A stretch of DNA of 42,599 nt from a virus, in the IMG/VR virus record IMGVR_UViG_3300032304_000621, positions 1 through 42,599 of that record. The stretch is one strand, 5' to 3'. The number at the start of each line of letters is the position of its first letter. Within the stretch, counting starts at the first letter, position 1. Of this stretch, positions 16,517 to 21,086 are shown piece after piece. The notes beneath the pieces were generated by a model, which saw only the letters and a list, made by a program, of their open reading frames with translations, did not search any database and had not been told where the DNA came from. The position numbers and the translations under genes are program-made.

Positions 16517-16698
16517 CGCTTTGTTTCTTTCATGTGGATGATGGCGTTATACATCATCTTTGTTTCAACAATCGCTTCCAAGGCGGCGGTAAGTGCTTCG
16601 TCATACTTGTTGTGCAACATCGCTTGGTGTGCGCGTTCAAGTGCATCCTCAGCCTTCATGCACGGTTGCGCGTAGTCAATCAACTCAACAGTCCCCAT
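16513..16698 (-). CDS. Small helical phage protein
   Basis: 61 residues from the ATG at 16698, chosen because GGAGAG precedes it by 4-6 bases; two earlier ATGs would enlarge the overlap with the polymerase gene. The protein is almost entirely alpha-helical (AEDALERAHQAMLHNKYDEA then LTAALEAIVETKMMYNAI), and small proteins of this type recur beside phage replication genes. No enzymatic motif is visible. It overlaps the polymerase 3' end by 14 bp and the nuclease start by 4 bp, so it is probably an accessory factor made with them. Confidence 0.65.
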   Translation of the reverse strand: MGTVELIDYAQPCMKAEDALERAHQAMLHNKYDEALTAALEAIVETKMMYNAIIHMKETKR

Positions 16699-18520
16699 AA
16701 CTCTCTCCATATCCTGCTTCACAGTTCAGCGGAATACCTTTTGCCCATTTGGGCACGTGCCTCATACACTGCATCACGTAGTCCATAGCTTCTTGTGCTT
16801 CTTCCTTGGGAGCCACACACGCCACAGCATCGTGAACAGTCATTACTACACGGTACTTCTTCGCTATCAATAACATCTGCTCACCAATGATGATACGTGC
16901 CAAGCCCTGACAAATGTTCTCTGTCAACTTGCCGCCGTACAACTTCACTGGCCCTTTTCGTGAGTCATAAATATACTGCAATTTACCCTGCGGGTCTACC
17001 ATTTTTCGCAGGTTTGGGTACCGCTGGTACAAACCATTAGGCATCAAGATTCCCGCCTTGTGTATCTCAATACAACCGTTGCCCCACCGTGCGGTTTGCC
17101 CTGCGGCTAGAGCACTAATTGCCGTGGAGCCTGCCTGCCACAAAGCAGGGATGTAGGGGTAAGTGTCGCGGTAGGTCTTGATGATTCCAGCGGCTTCTGG
17201 TTCACTGACCTGCACACCGAAAGTCTTGAGTTGCGCTTGGAACTTCGTACCGCCCATGCCATAGCCTGCGCCAAGAATCGTTGTTTTCCCAACGAAACGC
17301 TCTTGCGCCGATATATCTTCACGCGCTTTGTTGTAGATCGCTGACGCCATGATCTTGTACACATCTTCACCATTGGCAAATGCCTCCACCAAATCTGTTT
17401 GTCCTGCAAACCATGCAAGCACCCGTGCTTCAATCTGTGATGAGTCGCAGTCAATCACCACGTAACCCTCTGGTGCAAGGATGGACTTCTTCAACTTGTT
17501 CGCGTTCTCACCACGTGATGGGAAGTTTTGGAAATTGAGTTTGTCCGACCCACCCCACCGTCCCGTGTGGGCGGCGTAGTAAGCGAGAGGTACAGGTATC
17601 AAGCCACGGGTGGCAATCCCAATCAGGCGCTCGGTTCTGGTTTCCTCCAACGTAGTTTTGTTACCCAATCGTGCGGCAACAAGTGTCTGCACACGTTCAT
17701 CAGGGTGTTCAGCCAGCGCCTTGAAACCTTCGTCACTCTTAGCCAGCGCCAACGCTTCCTTGCCCGTAGTCGGACTGATCTTCATGGGCGGTTCAACACC
17801 AAGCCCACGTAGTAGTTCTGCAAACTTGTTGTTGGACATGAGGTCTTCCAACTGTGCGCCTGCCGCCGTAAGAAGTTTGGACTTCCTATCACGTACTTCT
17901 GTGAGATGGTTTTCAAGTAGTTCTGGATCGAGCCTCAAAACAGGTTCTGTAAACATCCTGATAGTGAGGTCAATCAGCTTGAGTTCCAGCTTCGATGTAG
18001 AAGCCGCCAGCATTTCGTTCAGCAGGATGATGAACAACTTGTAGGTCAACTCCACATCGTTCTTGCAATACAAACCGTATTGACGTAGTTCGCTTGGGGA
18101 AAAGTCCTCGCGCTTCATGTTGATCGCCCACACGGTGTCATCACCCTTCTGACCAAGCCCGTAGTGCTGTGTCAGCTTGTGTAGGCTACCGCCAACTTCC
18201 GTACCGTGAATGGCACGTGCCATGCTCAACGTGTCACCGATTGCCATAGGCTTGATGTTGAAGTGCCAACTCAGGATTGCCATGTCAAACATTGCATTGT
18301 GTGCAACCGCCATGCTGTTAGCCCAATCGAACGTCTGCAAGTAGCTGTACGTCTCAAGGTAGTCGCCACTAAACCAATCTGCGGGTTCATCGTTGACTTT
18401 GACGGACACACCAATCACATGAAAGCGCGGGTCACGAACGTACTCCTCTGTCGTTTGCTTCTTGAAACCCAAGTCACCATTGGTGAAGTACGTCTCAAAG
18501 TCCACTGTTATTACGTTCAT
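16685..18520 (-). CDS. Family A DNA polymerase with 3'-5' exonuclease
   Basis: 611 residues, similar in length to phage Pol I-like replicative enzymes. The exonuclease domain is intact: ExoI VDFETY (D7, E9), ExoII AHNAMFDM (D79) and ExoIII YCKNDVEL (Y151, D155). The polymerase domain has motif A VIDCDSSQIEARVL (D357, E364), motif B GKTTILGAGYGMGG (K412, Y420), and motif C VHDA (H563, D564). It should copy the phage genome with proofreading, primed by the PrimPol at 8251-11124. No 5' nuclease domain is present. An Rz-type upstream leader is not evident; it follows the tandem small-gene array in the same direction. Confidence 0.9.
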   Translation of the reverse strand: MNVITVDFETYFTNGDLGFKKQTTEEYVRDPRFHVIGVSVKVNDEPADWFSGDYLETYSYLQTFDWANSMAVAHNAMFDMAILSWHFNIKPMAIGDTLSMARAIHGTEVGGSLHKLTQHYGLGQKGDDTVWAINMKREDFSPSELRQYGLYCKNDVELTYKLFIILLNEMLAASTSKLELKLIDLTIRMFTEPVLRLDPELLENHLTEVRDRKSKLLTAAGAQLEDLMSNNKFAELLRGLGVEPPMKISPTTGKEALALAKSDEGFKALAEHPDERVQTLVAARLGNKTTLEETRTERLIGIATRGLIPVPLAYYAAHTGRWGGSDKLNFQNFPSRGENANKLKKSILAPEGYVVIDCDSSQIEARVLAWFAGQTDLVEAFANGEDVYKIMASAIYNKAREDISAQERFVGKTTILGAGYGMGGTKFQAQLKTFGVQVSEPEAAGIIKTYRDTYPYIPALWQAGSTAISALAAGQTARWGNGCIEIHKAGILMPNGLYQRYPNLRKMVDPQGKLQYIYDSRKGPVKLYGGKLTENICQGLARIIIGEQMLLIAKKYRVVMTVHDAVACVAPKEEAQEAMDYVMQCMRHVPKWAKGIPLNCEAGYGESYGDC

Positions 18521-18527
18521 AAATCCC

Positions 18528-18707
18528 TTAAAAGTTCAGCCCAAAGAACGATGATACATACGGTATGAATTCGTCCTTCCTGAACGTACCCATTTCGCCC
18601 GTCACGTTGTGCGTGATGCCAAACCTATCTTCATCCACGTTCCACAACCGATAGTCACCTATCTCTATCCATGCACGTTTTGCTTCGTATGCTTCTTGTT
18701 CAGTCAT
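18528..18707 (-). CDS. Small hypothetical protein
   Basis: 59 residues from the ATG at 18707, coupled to the upstream gene by an ATGA overlap and preceded by GAGGG. It reads MTEQEAYEAKRAWIEIGDYR and continues with WNVDEDRFGITHNVTGEMG, a mixed alpha/beta domain with no recognisable family. The last part, EFIPYV, is encoded by a degenerate copy of the 17-bp palindrome. It lacks the WxxxxxP motif of the six genes upstream, so it does not seem to belong to that family. Confidence 0.6.
   Translation of the reverse strand: MTEQEAYEAKRAWIEIGDYRLWNVDEDRFGITHNVTGEMGTFRKDEFIPYVSSFFGLNF
18554..18570. promoter_or_regulatory. Degenerate copy of 17-bp palindrome (14/17)
   Basis: ATACATACGGTATGAAT matches TTTCATACGGTATGAAA at 14 of 17 positions, with the CATACGGTATG core intact. 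It lies inside the coding sequence of the gene at 18528-18707. It is the only copy outside 24-32 kb and may be chance or a decayed site. Confidence 0.3.
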
Positions 18708-18979
18708 TTGCTTGCCCTCGCTATATCTGCTACTGCGTAGTACTGCTTGATAACATCTGGATGCGCGTCTGCTATCCACAATAACAACGCCTTCATGTCT
18801 TCAAGGTCTTTCCTCAACTCGTCAATGCGTATGGCATGGTCATTGGTCACTTGCCCAATGTTCACCAGTGAGTCAACGGTCAGGTTTAATTGATTGTTAA
18901 TTTGGCTTTTTACGCTGTACATATCCATTGGGCGCATCGCTGGTGGCTTTGAATATACGTGGTTGTCTTGGTGGTTCAT
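18704..18979 (-). CDS. Tandem family member 1: coiled coil plus W...P...QY motif
   Basis: 91 residues from the ATG at 18979, with ATGA overlaps at both ends. After a 40-residue N-terminal part, the segment DHAIRIDELRKDLEDM begins a heptad-like coiled coil, and the C-terminus is LLWIADAHPDVIKQYYAVAD followed by IARASK. It is clearly paralogous to the next gene upstream, which has DHANIIDALKQQLKDM and then a matching W...HP...EY tail. No enzyme motif is visible. A scaffold, adaptor or oligomerisation role is possible but unproven. Confidence 0.7.
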   Translation of the reverse strand: MNHQDNHVYSKPPAMRPMDMYSVKSQINNQLNLTVDSLVNIGQVTNDHAIRIDELRKDLEDMKALLLWIADAHPDVIKQYYAVADIARASK

Positions 18980-19260
18980 CTGCTGGCCTCCGTTAAATCT
19001 CCTATTGCGTTGTATTCCGCAAAGATAGTTGGGTGTGTGGTGGTTGCCCAATCCATGAATCCCTGCATGTCTTTGAGTTGTTGCTTCAACGCATCAATGA
19101 TGTTGGCATGATCACTCAGCATAAGCATCACATCTGCCATCAGCTTGTCCTGCTCTTGCGCCAAGTCGGTCATACTGCTTATGCGGTCACCGTTCTGTAT
19201 CTTTGGTCGTGCGGCAGGGCGGTCACGGTACCTCTCCCATGCTGTTGGTGCTTTACTCAT
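18976..19260 (-). CDS. Tandem family member 2: coiled coil plus W...P...EY motif
   Basis: 94 residues, ATG at 19260 with AGGAGAG upstream. An N-terminal basic region (WERYRDRPAARPK) leads into a long helix (DHANIIDALKQQLKDM) and the family tail MDWATTTHPTIFAEYNAIGD followed by LTEASR. It resembles member 1 most closely, sharing D-H-A, I-D-x-L, the D-M before the tail, W, HP, Y and the final A-S-(K/R). ATGA overlaps couple it to its neighbours. Function unknown. Confidence 0.7.
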   Translation of the reverse strand: MSKAPTAWERYRDRPAARPKIQNGDRISSMTDLAQEQDKLMADVMLMLSDHANIIDALKQQLKDMQGFMDWATTTHPTIFAEYNAIGDLTEASR

Positions 19261-19595
19261 CTGTTCTCTCCTGCTTCGGTTATGTCCAGCAAGGCTTTGT
19301 GTTGCGATTGCAGTTCCTCATAGTTCTCCACAGTACGTTGCAGGATGTACCGCAACTCCTCTACTTCCTTCTTCAACTCCATCATTTCACCCCACGGTGT
19401 CATCGCCCCTTGTGTCCACGTTCGTGGGTTTGGGTTGTTCAGTATGGTGTTGTGCTGTTGTAGGATTGAATTTTGAAGCTGTGACGGGTGCACGTTGTTC
19501 CATCCCCCCGCCTGTTGTGCGGGGTTCGTGTTGGTAGTTGTTGTGGTGTGGGTCAGACCACTCTGCCCACCAAGGATGCCGTCAAATATCCCCAT
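19257..19595 (-). CDS. Tandem family member 3 (divergent)
   Basis: 112 residues. The N-terminal half is unlike the others: a Gly-rich start (MGIFDGILGGQSG), a Thr/Asn run (THTTTTTNTNPAQQAGG) and a Q/N-rich segment. It then has a coiled coil (MMELKKEVEELRYILQRTVE) and a C-terminus ENYEELQSQHKALLDITEAG, which aligns with the family tail although the W and P are lost. It overlaps its upstream neighbour by 14 bp and has GAGGT before the ATG. It is probably a family member that gained a new N-terminus. Confidence 0.6.
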   Translation of the reverse strand: MGIFDGILGGQSGLTHTTTTTNTNPAQQAGGWNNVHPSQLQNSILQQHNTILNNPNPRTWTQGAMTPWGEMMELKKEVEELRYILQRTVENYEELQSQHKALLDITEAGENR

Positions 19596-19929
19596 TGCCT
19601 ACCTCGTACTTCACCGCTTGGCCTGACGCTTTGACTTGTGCCGCCCCGTACCCCCGCGCCATTTTTTCCCACTCATTGGTTTTACCCAACTCCTCCAACT
19701 CGCGTATGGATACGTATTGCTCCAACAACTCAGGGTGCGTTTCTTTCACCCACTCGTGAAATTTATCCAAGGGTCTCATTCGATTCCATATAGCTTCCAT
19801 CGTGTTGTTTTGGGATGTGAGTCGGTCATGTAGGGTATTGATTTGTTTCATAACAAACGGGTGGATGAGCGCTTCCTTATCCACAACTGCCCCAGTTAAT
19901 TCAAGTCCAGTATCTTCTTGTTCAATCAT
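19582..19929 (-). CDS. Tandem family member 4: W...P...QY motif, extended C-terminus
   Basis: 115 residues, ATG at 19929 preceded by GGAG and overlapping the upstream stop (ATGA). A helical region with MKQINTLHDRLTSQNNTMEA leads into the motif FHEWVKETHPELLEQYVSIR then ELEELGK, the best example of the W-x5-P-x5-QY pattern. Unlike members 1 and 2 it continues about 30 residues further (NEWEKMARGYGAAQVKASG). The N-terminus is acidic. Function unknown. Confidence 0.7.
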   Translation of the reverse strand: MIEQEDTGLELTGAVVDKEALIHPFVMKQINTLHDRLTSQNNTMEAIWNRMRPLDKFHEWVKETHPELLEQYVSIRELEELGKTNEWEKMARGYGAAQVKASGQAVKYEVGNGDI

Positions 19930-20180
19930 TTAATTTCTCCAAAAAATTTGTGTTTAGCTTCGTACTCTGCCGCTTCAATTTCTTTGACTGCGTTGTACTG
20001 CTCGATGATTTCGGGATAGGTGTCCTTAATCCACCCTAGTGCCTTGCGCGTATGTTGACTGGTGATGATTTCCGTCTTCAAGGCGTTCTCCAATTCAAGA
20101 ATCTTCTGCCGCACCTGTGGGTCAAGGAATGGGTTGCTACGCCACTCACCAAGTTCTTGTTCTTTAGGTTCGTTACTCAT
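19926..20180 (-). CDS. Tandem family member 5: W...P...QY motif
   Basis: 84 residues from the ATG at 20180, preceded by GGAATTAGGA and coupled by ATGA overlaps on both sides. A short N-terminal part (LDPQVRQKILELENALKTE) forms a helix, followed by LGWIKDTYPEIIEQYNAVKE then IEAAEYEAKHKF. The motif is nearly identical in pattern to member 4 (W-[IV]-K-[DE]-T-[HY]-P-E-[IL]-[IL]-E-Q-Y). Function unknown; the C-terminus is basic. Confidence 0.7.
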   Translation of the reverse strand: MSNEPKEQELGEWRSNPFLDPQVRQKILELENALKTEIITSQHTRKALGWIKDTYPEIIEQYNAVKEIEAAEYEAKHKFFGEIK

Positions 20181-20473
20181 ATTCCTAATTCCCTTTTTAG
20201 TCTGTTTGGTTCTTCTGACGCTTTCTGCAAGTCCATCAACGACTTGTACTGCACGTATGTTTCGGGGTACACCTCCAGCAACCATGTATAAAAGCCATTG
20301 ATGTGTTCGATTTTTTTCTTGGCGTGGCGCACCTCTGCACGTAAGTCATTCATGTCTGCCTTATGTTCCGCGCCTGCCTCGGCCAAAGCCTGTTTTACTT
20401 CCCGCAAAAGCTTCGATTCAAACCCATCACGCGCCCAATCTTCGATGCCACTTGGGGGTCGGTTGTACGCCAT
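20177..20473 (-). CDS. Tandem family member 6: W...P...QY motif
   Basis: 98 residues from the ATG at 20473, one base after the upstream stop; a TTG at 20485 is possible. The long helix LLREVKQALAEAGAEHKADM continues as NDLRAEVRHAKKKIEHI, then comes the family tail FYTWLLEVYPETYVQYKSLM followed by DLQKASEEPNRLKREL. It is the first of the six related genes to be translated after the 203-residue DNA-binding candidate upstream. Confidence 0.7.
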   Translation of the reverse strand: MAYNRPPSGIEDWARDGFESKLLREVKQALAEAGAEHKADMNDLRAEVRHAKKKIEHINGFYTWLLEVYPETYVQYKSLMDLQKASEEPNRLKRELGI

Positions 20474-20474
20474 G

Positions 20475-21086
20475 TCAGCCACCAAAGATTTGCTTCAGTT
20501 CAATATACAACTCACGCGCCTGCAATACGCTCAGACCATCCAACGCTTCTTTGGCAGTCCATGTGGATTTGATGGTGGGTGCAGTGTTGTGGGTAGCTGT
20601 GGTGGGTATGGGTTGTGGCACTAAGTCACTGATACCAAGCTGTACCCCCACCGATTCGCGCTCTGCGGCCTTCGCCGCTTTTGCGGCACGGGCTTTCTCT
20701 GCACGGGCAACTGCGGCTTTGTAGCGTTCCTTCGCGGCTTTCTTATGGGCTAACCGTACTTCGTCAGGCACTGCTGTGTAGTTGTATGTAATGTGTCCCT
20801 TCTCAGGCACTGCCGCTTCTCGCGTAACGTGGTATGAATCTGTAACCTGCTTGAGTGTTGAAGAGATATATGATTCTTGTATCTCTGGGTACTTTGCCAA
20901 AACACGTTTACGTATCTCAAGGCTATTGATACCGGGGTTTGCTACGATAAATTCCATTACCTTAGATACTGTTGTGCGTTTCTTTTCCATTGTGTTCTCC
21001 TGTGGTTGATTTGCTTGTGCGTCTTGGTTGTCCCATTCGGTCAGGACTGCTTTCACTTTCGACATTTCCTCTGCTAGTGTTCCCAT
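20475..21086 (-). CDS. Putative winged-helix DNA-binding protein with Ala/Lys-rich linker
   Basis: 203 residues from the ATG at 21086, chosen because GGAGGA lies 5 nt upstream, inside the end of the nuclease gene. Residues about 30-100 (KVMEFIVANPGINSLEIRKR then VLAKYPEIQESYISSTLKQV) look like a winged-helix domain, with helices, a recognition helix and a beta hairpin (HITYNYTAV). A long Lys/Ala/Arg helix follows (about 110-145), then a Pro/Thr linker and a short C-terminal helix pair ending QARELYIELKQIFGG. A DNA-binding regulator or replication accessory is likely. It directly precedes the tandem family. Confidence 0.6.
   Translation of the reverse strand: MGTLAEEMSKVKAVLTEWDNQDAQANQPQENTMEKKRTTVSKVMEFIVANPGINSLEIRKRVLAKYPEIQESYISSTLKQVTDSYHVTREAAVPEKGHITYNYTAVPDEVRLAHKKAAKERYKAAVARAEKARAAKAAKAAERESVGVQLGISDLVPQPIPTTATHNTAPTIKSTWTAKEALDGLSVLQARELYIELKQIFGG

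Follow-up and report, generated by a model that had tools for sequence, protein, structure and literature searches.

The window analysed here is a 42,599-base IMG/VR virus record, taken at its full length, from an uncultivated phage. Six small genes, here named A to F, lie in a row on the minus strand and are read from right to left (20473–18704). The row is flanked upstream by a gene for a MarR-like winged-helix protein and downstream by a 59-aa open reading frame (ORF) followed by a family A DNA polymerase (PolA) gene:

20475..21086, minus strand: MarR-like winged-helix gene, 203 aa, directly upstream of the array; C-terminus QARELYIELKQIFGG
20177..20473, minus strand: gene A, 98 aa, array position 1; head GIEDWARDGFE, heptad helix, WLLEVYPETYVQY hairpin
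19926..20180, minus strand: gene B, 84 aa; head EQELGEWRSNPFLDPQVR, hairpin WIKDTYPEIIEQY, tail FFGEIK
19582..19929, minus strand: gene C, 115 aa; hairpin WVKETHPELLEQY, long tail AQVKASGQAVKYE
19257..19595, minus strand: gene D, 112 aa; N-terminus MGIFDGILGG, T/N/Q-rich linker, hairpin QRTVENYEELQSQH lacking W and P
18976..19260, minus strand: gene E, 94 aa; SDHANIIDALKQQLKDM coil, hairpin WATTTHPTIFAEY
18704..18979, minus strand: gene F, 91 aa; NDHAIRIDELRKDLEDM coil, hairpin WIADAHPDVIKQY
18528..18707, minus strand: 59-aa ORF ending in SSFFGLNF, between gene F and PolA
16685..18520, minus strand: PolA, 611 aa (PHROG_17, E 9e-92)

Overlaps of 4 nt (ATGA) join A to B, B to C, D to E, E to F and F to the 59-aa ORF, and C and D overlap by 14 nt. 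The end of the MarR-like gene is separated from gene A by a gap of 1 nt, and the 59-aa ORF from PolA by 7 nt. No promoter-like or terminator-like minus-strand sites were found within the array, and the simplest reading is therefore that the MarR-like gene, A–F, the 59-aa ORF and PolA would form one translationally coupled transcription unit, to which PolA is assigned because of the gene spacing.

Related phage contigs (labelled L001, L002 and so on) were drawn from IMG/VR via PolA, and more were added by scans with alignments of the array members and of the MarR-like protein. The MarR-like gene marks the locus in these relatives. In an alignment of 20 divergent phages its product ends in a nearly invariant QARxLYDELKxIFGG, which looks like a docking peptide. 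An AlphaFold2 (AF2) model of the protein gave MarR-type matches in Foldseek with a probability near 1 (E 1.5e-3), and the protein matched no Pfam or PHROG family and no isolate phage. The 59-aa ORF belongs to a family of 59–99 aa with a conserved core and the C-terminus FFGLNF, found directly before PolA in many relatives and matching no known family; counterparts near PolA are present in L005–L008, L010, L088, L091–L093, L098–L101, L107 and L108. A small VRR-NUC/Hjc-like nuclease gene (21393–21088, minus strand; Pfam Hjc, 1.5e-4), also conserved in relatives, lies directly upstream of the MarR-like gene.

Homology and predicted fold of the six genes

The original prediction described six adjacent, overlapping and related genes at 18704–20473, for which a profile search was proposed as a check. 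All six ORFs are present there, and a profile built exclusively from family members of other phages, with no window sequence included, picks out A–F alone among the 382 ORFs of the window (A 4e-21, C 2e-15, E 7e-15, F 1e-12, B 2e-12, D 5e-10; no other ORF at E<=1). The shuffled control, with 50 shuffles per ORF, produced zero matches to this profile. Five of the genes are still recovered when their own subfamily is left out of the profile (A 9e-11, B 7e-11, C 1.5e-12, E 3e-15, F 2e-12), and gene D, recovered at about 5e-4 to 1e-3 by a profile without the D subfamily, is the weakest link in the family. Pairwise similarity among the window paralogues is modest, with identities mostly below 30%, and is clear for E/F (6e-10 with phmmer), B/C (9e-6) and C/E (about 5e-5). 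The gene tree places the six types in separate groups, several of them with modest support. The closest paralogue of E is F. A DHAxxID stretch had been noted in members 1 and 2, which were numbered from the left and correspond to F and E (member 3 being D), and this pair does share it. E-values for short coiled-coil proteins are to be weighed together with synteny and the non-heptad motif; the sequence comparisons confirm that the six genes are homologous, far beyond chance, with a tie to D that is weaker than the others.

The family signature is W-x5-P-x4-[EQ]-Y-x-[AS]-[LIV]-x-[DE]-[LI]. The previously described C-terminal pattern with its W, P and [EQ]Y is thus retained, with its spacing corrected from P-x5 to P-x4. 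In most members, hydrophobic residues in the stretch before the signature recur with a period of 3.5 (median z 2.5), a signal that is weak or non-significant in several B, C and D' sequences (D' genes are described below). In the AF2 model of gene A, a helix spanning residues 10–68 breaks at Tyr69-Pro70 and is followed by a second helix at 70–96 (mean pLDDT 76, pTM 0.35). Each protein is predicted to have a long helix that leads through a Tyr/His-Pro turn into a short second helix, forming a shared C-terminal hairpin, with a differing N-terminal head in front. Foldseek searches with the gene A model returned zero matches in the PDB and two weak, uninformative ones in BFVD, a set of viral structure models.

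Between orthologues, conservation is usually highest in the 25-residue hairpin, and the heads vary. Head conservation is uneven, being weak in A, D and E and, as an exception, strong in B. The proposal of a shared C-terminal pattern in otherwise diverged genes is thereby supported in the form of a common hairpin with differing N-terminal heads. In the orthologue pairs measured, dN/dS values of about 0.1–0.65 indicate purifying selection, and orthologue pairs mostly evolve faster than PolA.

Searches of Pfam and PHROGs with the array members and their relatives gave chance-level matches only, an A-type query found no homologue in isolate phage genomes, and scans of a genome collection with PolA or A-type alignments revealed no cellular or prophage relative. 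No description of such a family came up in literature searches. The family therefore appears to be new to Pfam and PHROGs and is undetected in isolate phage genomes with an A-type query. Sequence matches in the PDB to keratin and syntaxin (E 0.003–0.006) were judged likely to reflect coiled-coil composition, and the fold search with gene A gave no PDB match. Tit16 of the Xanthomonas pradovirus Titan-X, a promising candidate by its place just upstream of the polymerase, was likewise rejected (tblastn with an L018 protein, E 2), the protein being unlike the family.

More distant members were identified in L111, L113 and L115, each with a single copy directly after the same MarR-like gene; the L115 match is weak, and that record holds two further tandem copies elsewhere. 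The L018 record, in which one protein first scored as borderline at 0.018, contains one clear and two weaker members, scattered. The membership of an L014 protein, borderline at 0.088, stays unsure. Single genes at unrelated positions had been named as a finding that would refute the original prediction; the distant relatives fit this in part, with single or scattered copies, and these indicate a wider family, not non-homology.

Other short genes near PolA also have shared ends. A 70-aa protein encoded upstream of PolA in L014 (3467–3679) ends in KTEPFVGEIKIP, like the B tail NTEPFFGEIK, and differs in its remainder. Short genes upstream of PolA in L001–L004, L007, L112, L116 and L117 either share a C-terminal AKLKEKN[TAG], in some cases with WVGLT(D/E)EE, or end in AIRARGQA, and make up another group of small proteins with C-termini in common.

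Copy number, gene order and deletion joints

Most of the relatives' records are fragments; zero copies were scored only where the flanking genes adjoin, and genes in the relatives were called as a simple ORF chain. The copy-number comparison proposed in the original prediction reveals 0, 1, 2, 3 or 5 copies in relatives and six in the window, where they occupy the slot between the MarR-like and the FFGLNF/PolA genes. The same slot is empty in L006, L007, L098–L101 and L107, holds a single copy in L008–L010, L088, L092 and L093, three copies in L005 (A, D' and F) and five in L091 (A, a B/C hybrid, D', E and F). L001–L004 contain B and C (L001, L003) or B, C and D (L002, L004), followed by unrelated small genes, and L108 has one copy on the opposite side of the FFGLNF gene. 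No copies outside this locus were found in the records of close relatives.

The order A, B, C, D, E, F is kept wherever genes are shared between phages. Orthologues of A, the type that most often occurs alone, are present in L005, L091, L092, L093, L088, L008 and L010, those of B and of C in L001–L004, that of E in L091, and those of F in L005 and L091. The PolA tree groups the window with L001–L004, and L005 with L091. Even close kin by PolA differ in array content, with B and C in L001 and L003 as opposed to B, C and D in L002 and L004.

Gene D had been described as having lost the W and P of the signature. This is correct, and the trait also occurs in the D orthologues of L002 and L004, whereas the D' genes of L005 and L091, which occupy the corresponding position, retain both residues. 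On this evidence the W- and P-less D is a stable subfamily with orthologues. The D' N-termini resemble that of D in their short, hydrophobic, G-rich stretch, but the gene tree does not group D with D'. Based on position and N-terminus, the D' genes of L005 and L091 are probable counterparts of D. Should D and D' be orthologous, the ancestor of the lineages concerned would already have had a broad gene set, which was then lost piecemeal.

Two joints between neighbouring copies were identified in the relatives:

L001:6387-6414 and L003:5715-5742: C–D deletion joint, at which the 3' end of C runs into the final 23 nt of D
L091:6167-6433: B/C hybrid gene (L091 gene 2), B-type head and C-type tail

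L001 and L003, whose PolA is near-identical to that of L002 and L004, lack gene D, and in their gene C the final 23 nt of D (ctaaagcggaggagaacaaatga) stand in place of the gene's own tail. An in-frame deletion of 301–310 bp has therefore taken D out of both. The joint retains the ribosome-binding stretch of the next gene and its ATGA start. The head of L091 gene 2 matches that of window gene B (z 11.7; at most 0.7 for the other paralogues) and its tail matches C (z 6.4). This hybrid fits a deletion between neighbouring B and C genes, but might alternatively reflect an ancestor in which the two were still undivided. Together, the two joints point to contraction of the array by deletion.

The claim of a gene expansion with diversification is thus supported by homologous paralogues, orthologue groups in fixed order, copy numbers from 0 to 6 and deletion joints. 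Judged by these comparisons, the locus is a lineage-specific tandem expansion, or gene accordion, trimmed by deletion.

Candidate roles and known systems

Because empty loci and subsets occur, the proteins are likely accessory, with no obligatory complex of all six, and the natural subsets show that members can function in smaller sets. A complex that requires all six parts is unlikely, since A alone, B with C, and A with D' and F all exist beside empty loci. The roles that remain are all candidates, among them the originally suggested interacting subunits and inhibitors or adaptors of host proteins, and were ranked as interchangeable early adaptors, anti-defence inhibitors, replisome accessories and regulators of the MarR-like neighbour.

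The preferred explanation, held tentatively and at somewhat less than even confidence, is a tandem expansion within the replication operon which supplies interchangeable, individually dispensable adaptors with an early accessory role. The C-terminal coil or hairpin would self-associate or dock on one common phage partner, and the differing heads would recruit or block different partners and so confer specificity. It draws on the observed homology, shared slot and gene order, copy-number variation, deletion joints, purifying selection and hairpin conservation, and on the predicted helix break and coiled-coil periodicity. The low pTM (0.35) of the gene A model, its lack of a structural neighbour in the PDB, the weak heptad signal in some members, the weak tie of D to the family and the uneven conservation of the heads count against it. 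In a more specific and improbable version, the array would be an adaptor kit in which one docking hairpin carries six heads, each neutralising or recruiting a different host protein, and heads and tails are swapped by recombination between neighbours, as in the B/C hybrid. If true, phages would change their set of targets by adding, deleting or fusing genes.

It is also conceivable, though doubtful, that the array is an anti-defence or host-takeover set in which the paralogues each bind and block their own host target, a defence or metabolic protein, and array size follows the hosts met. Dispensability, copy numbers that vary among near-identical phages, divergent heads and evolution faster than that of PolA would all fit such a set. 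However, the family has no similarity to described ones in Pfam and PHROGs, the measured pairs are under purifying and not diversifying selection, and the genes keep a fixed position within the replication operon, not in a variable island.

That the proteins act as accessory subunits of the replisome, with paralogues forming hetero-oligomers in one complex for replication or recombination together with PolA, the MarR-like protein or the FFGLNF protein, is unlikely. Their genes are translationally coupled, lie directly before the 59-aa ORF and PolA in a fixed order, and always have the MarR-like gene upstream at this locus; yet the empty loci combine a related PolA and the same flanks with zero copies, the sets {A}, {B,C} and {A,D',F} are incompatible with an obligate complex of six, and the A-type query is unmatched in isolate phages.

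A slightly lower ranking is given to regulation of the MarR-like protein by the array proteins, which would act as anti-repressors or co-factors and tune early transcription through coiled-coil contacts. The start of gene A 1 nt after the MarR-like gene, the distant single copies directly after the same gene (L111, L113, L115) and the neighbour's predicted MarR-type fold are consistent with this role, but the MarR-like gene often occurs without any copy, as in all the empty loci, and distant records hold extra copies away from it. Finally, that the six are unrelated coiled coils alike by composition is very improbable: coiled coils do yield false matches, as with keratin and syntaxin, but the independent profile recovers exactly six ORFs and no shuffles, the conserved W-x5-P-x4-[EQ]-Y motif is non-heptad, orthologues are collinear and hybrid genes occur, and this explanation is ruled out for all but D by the profile search and synteny.

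Compared with MarR/SlyA-type winged-helix regulators, the likeness is confined to the predicted fold of the upstream neighbour. No DNA-binding domain is apparent in the array proteins, and the neighbour adds its near-invariant QARxLYDELKxIFGG tail. The SPO1 takeover module is a cluster of small early host-takeover genes, many of them overlapping and some interrelated. The array is similar in its many short, overlapping and related genes, but all six belong to one family in a fixed slot beside PolA.

Gene accordions and tandem paralogue expansions with varying copy number are found in viruses, for example in the amplification of poxvirus K3L. The phage locus resembles these in its tandem copies at one place, in near relatives that differ in number and in contraction by deletion. 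It displays the shared ancestry of adjacent same-strand genes (weaker for D), copy-number variation at the same locus and joints between copies that define an accordion. In contrast to recent identical amplicons, the array copies are highly diverged and fall into old orthologue groups. The natural series from 0 to 6 copies, with its orthology, fixed order and two joints, captures a compact phage growing and trimming one family of small genes within the replication operon. Should the heads differ in their targets, the array would serve as a ready panel for identifying the selection behind expansions of this kind.
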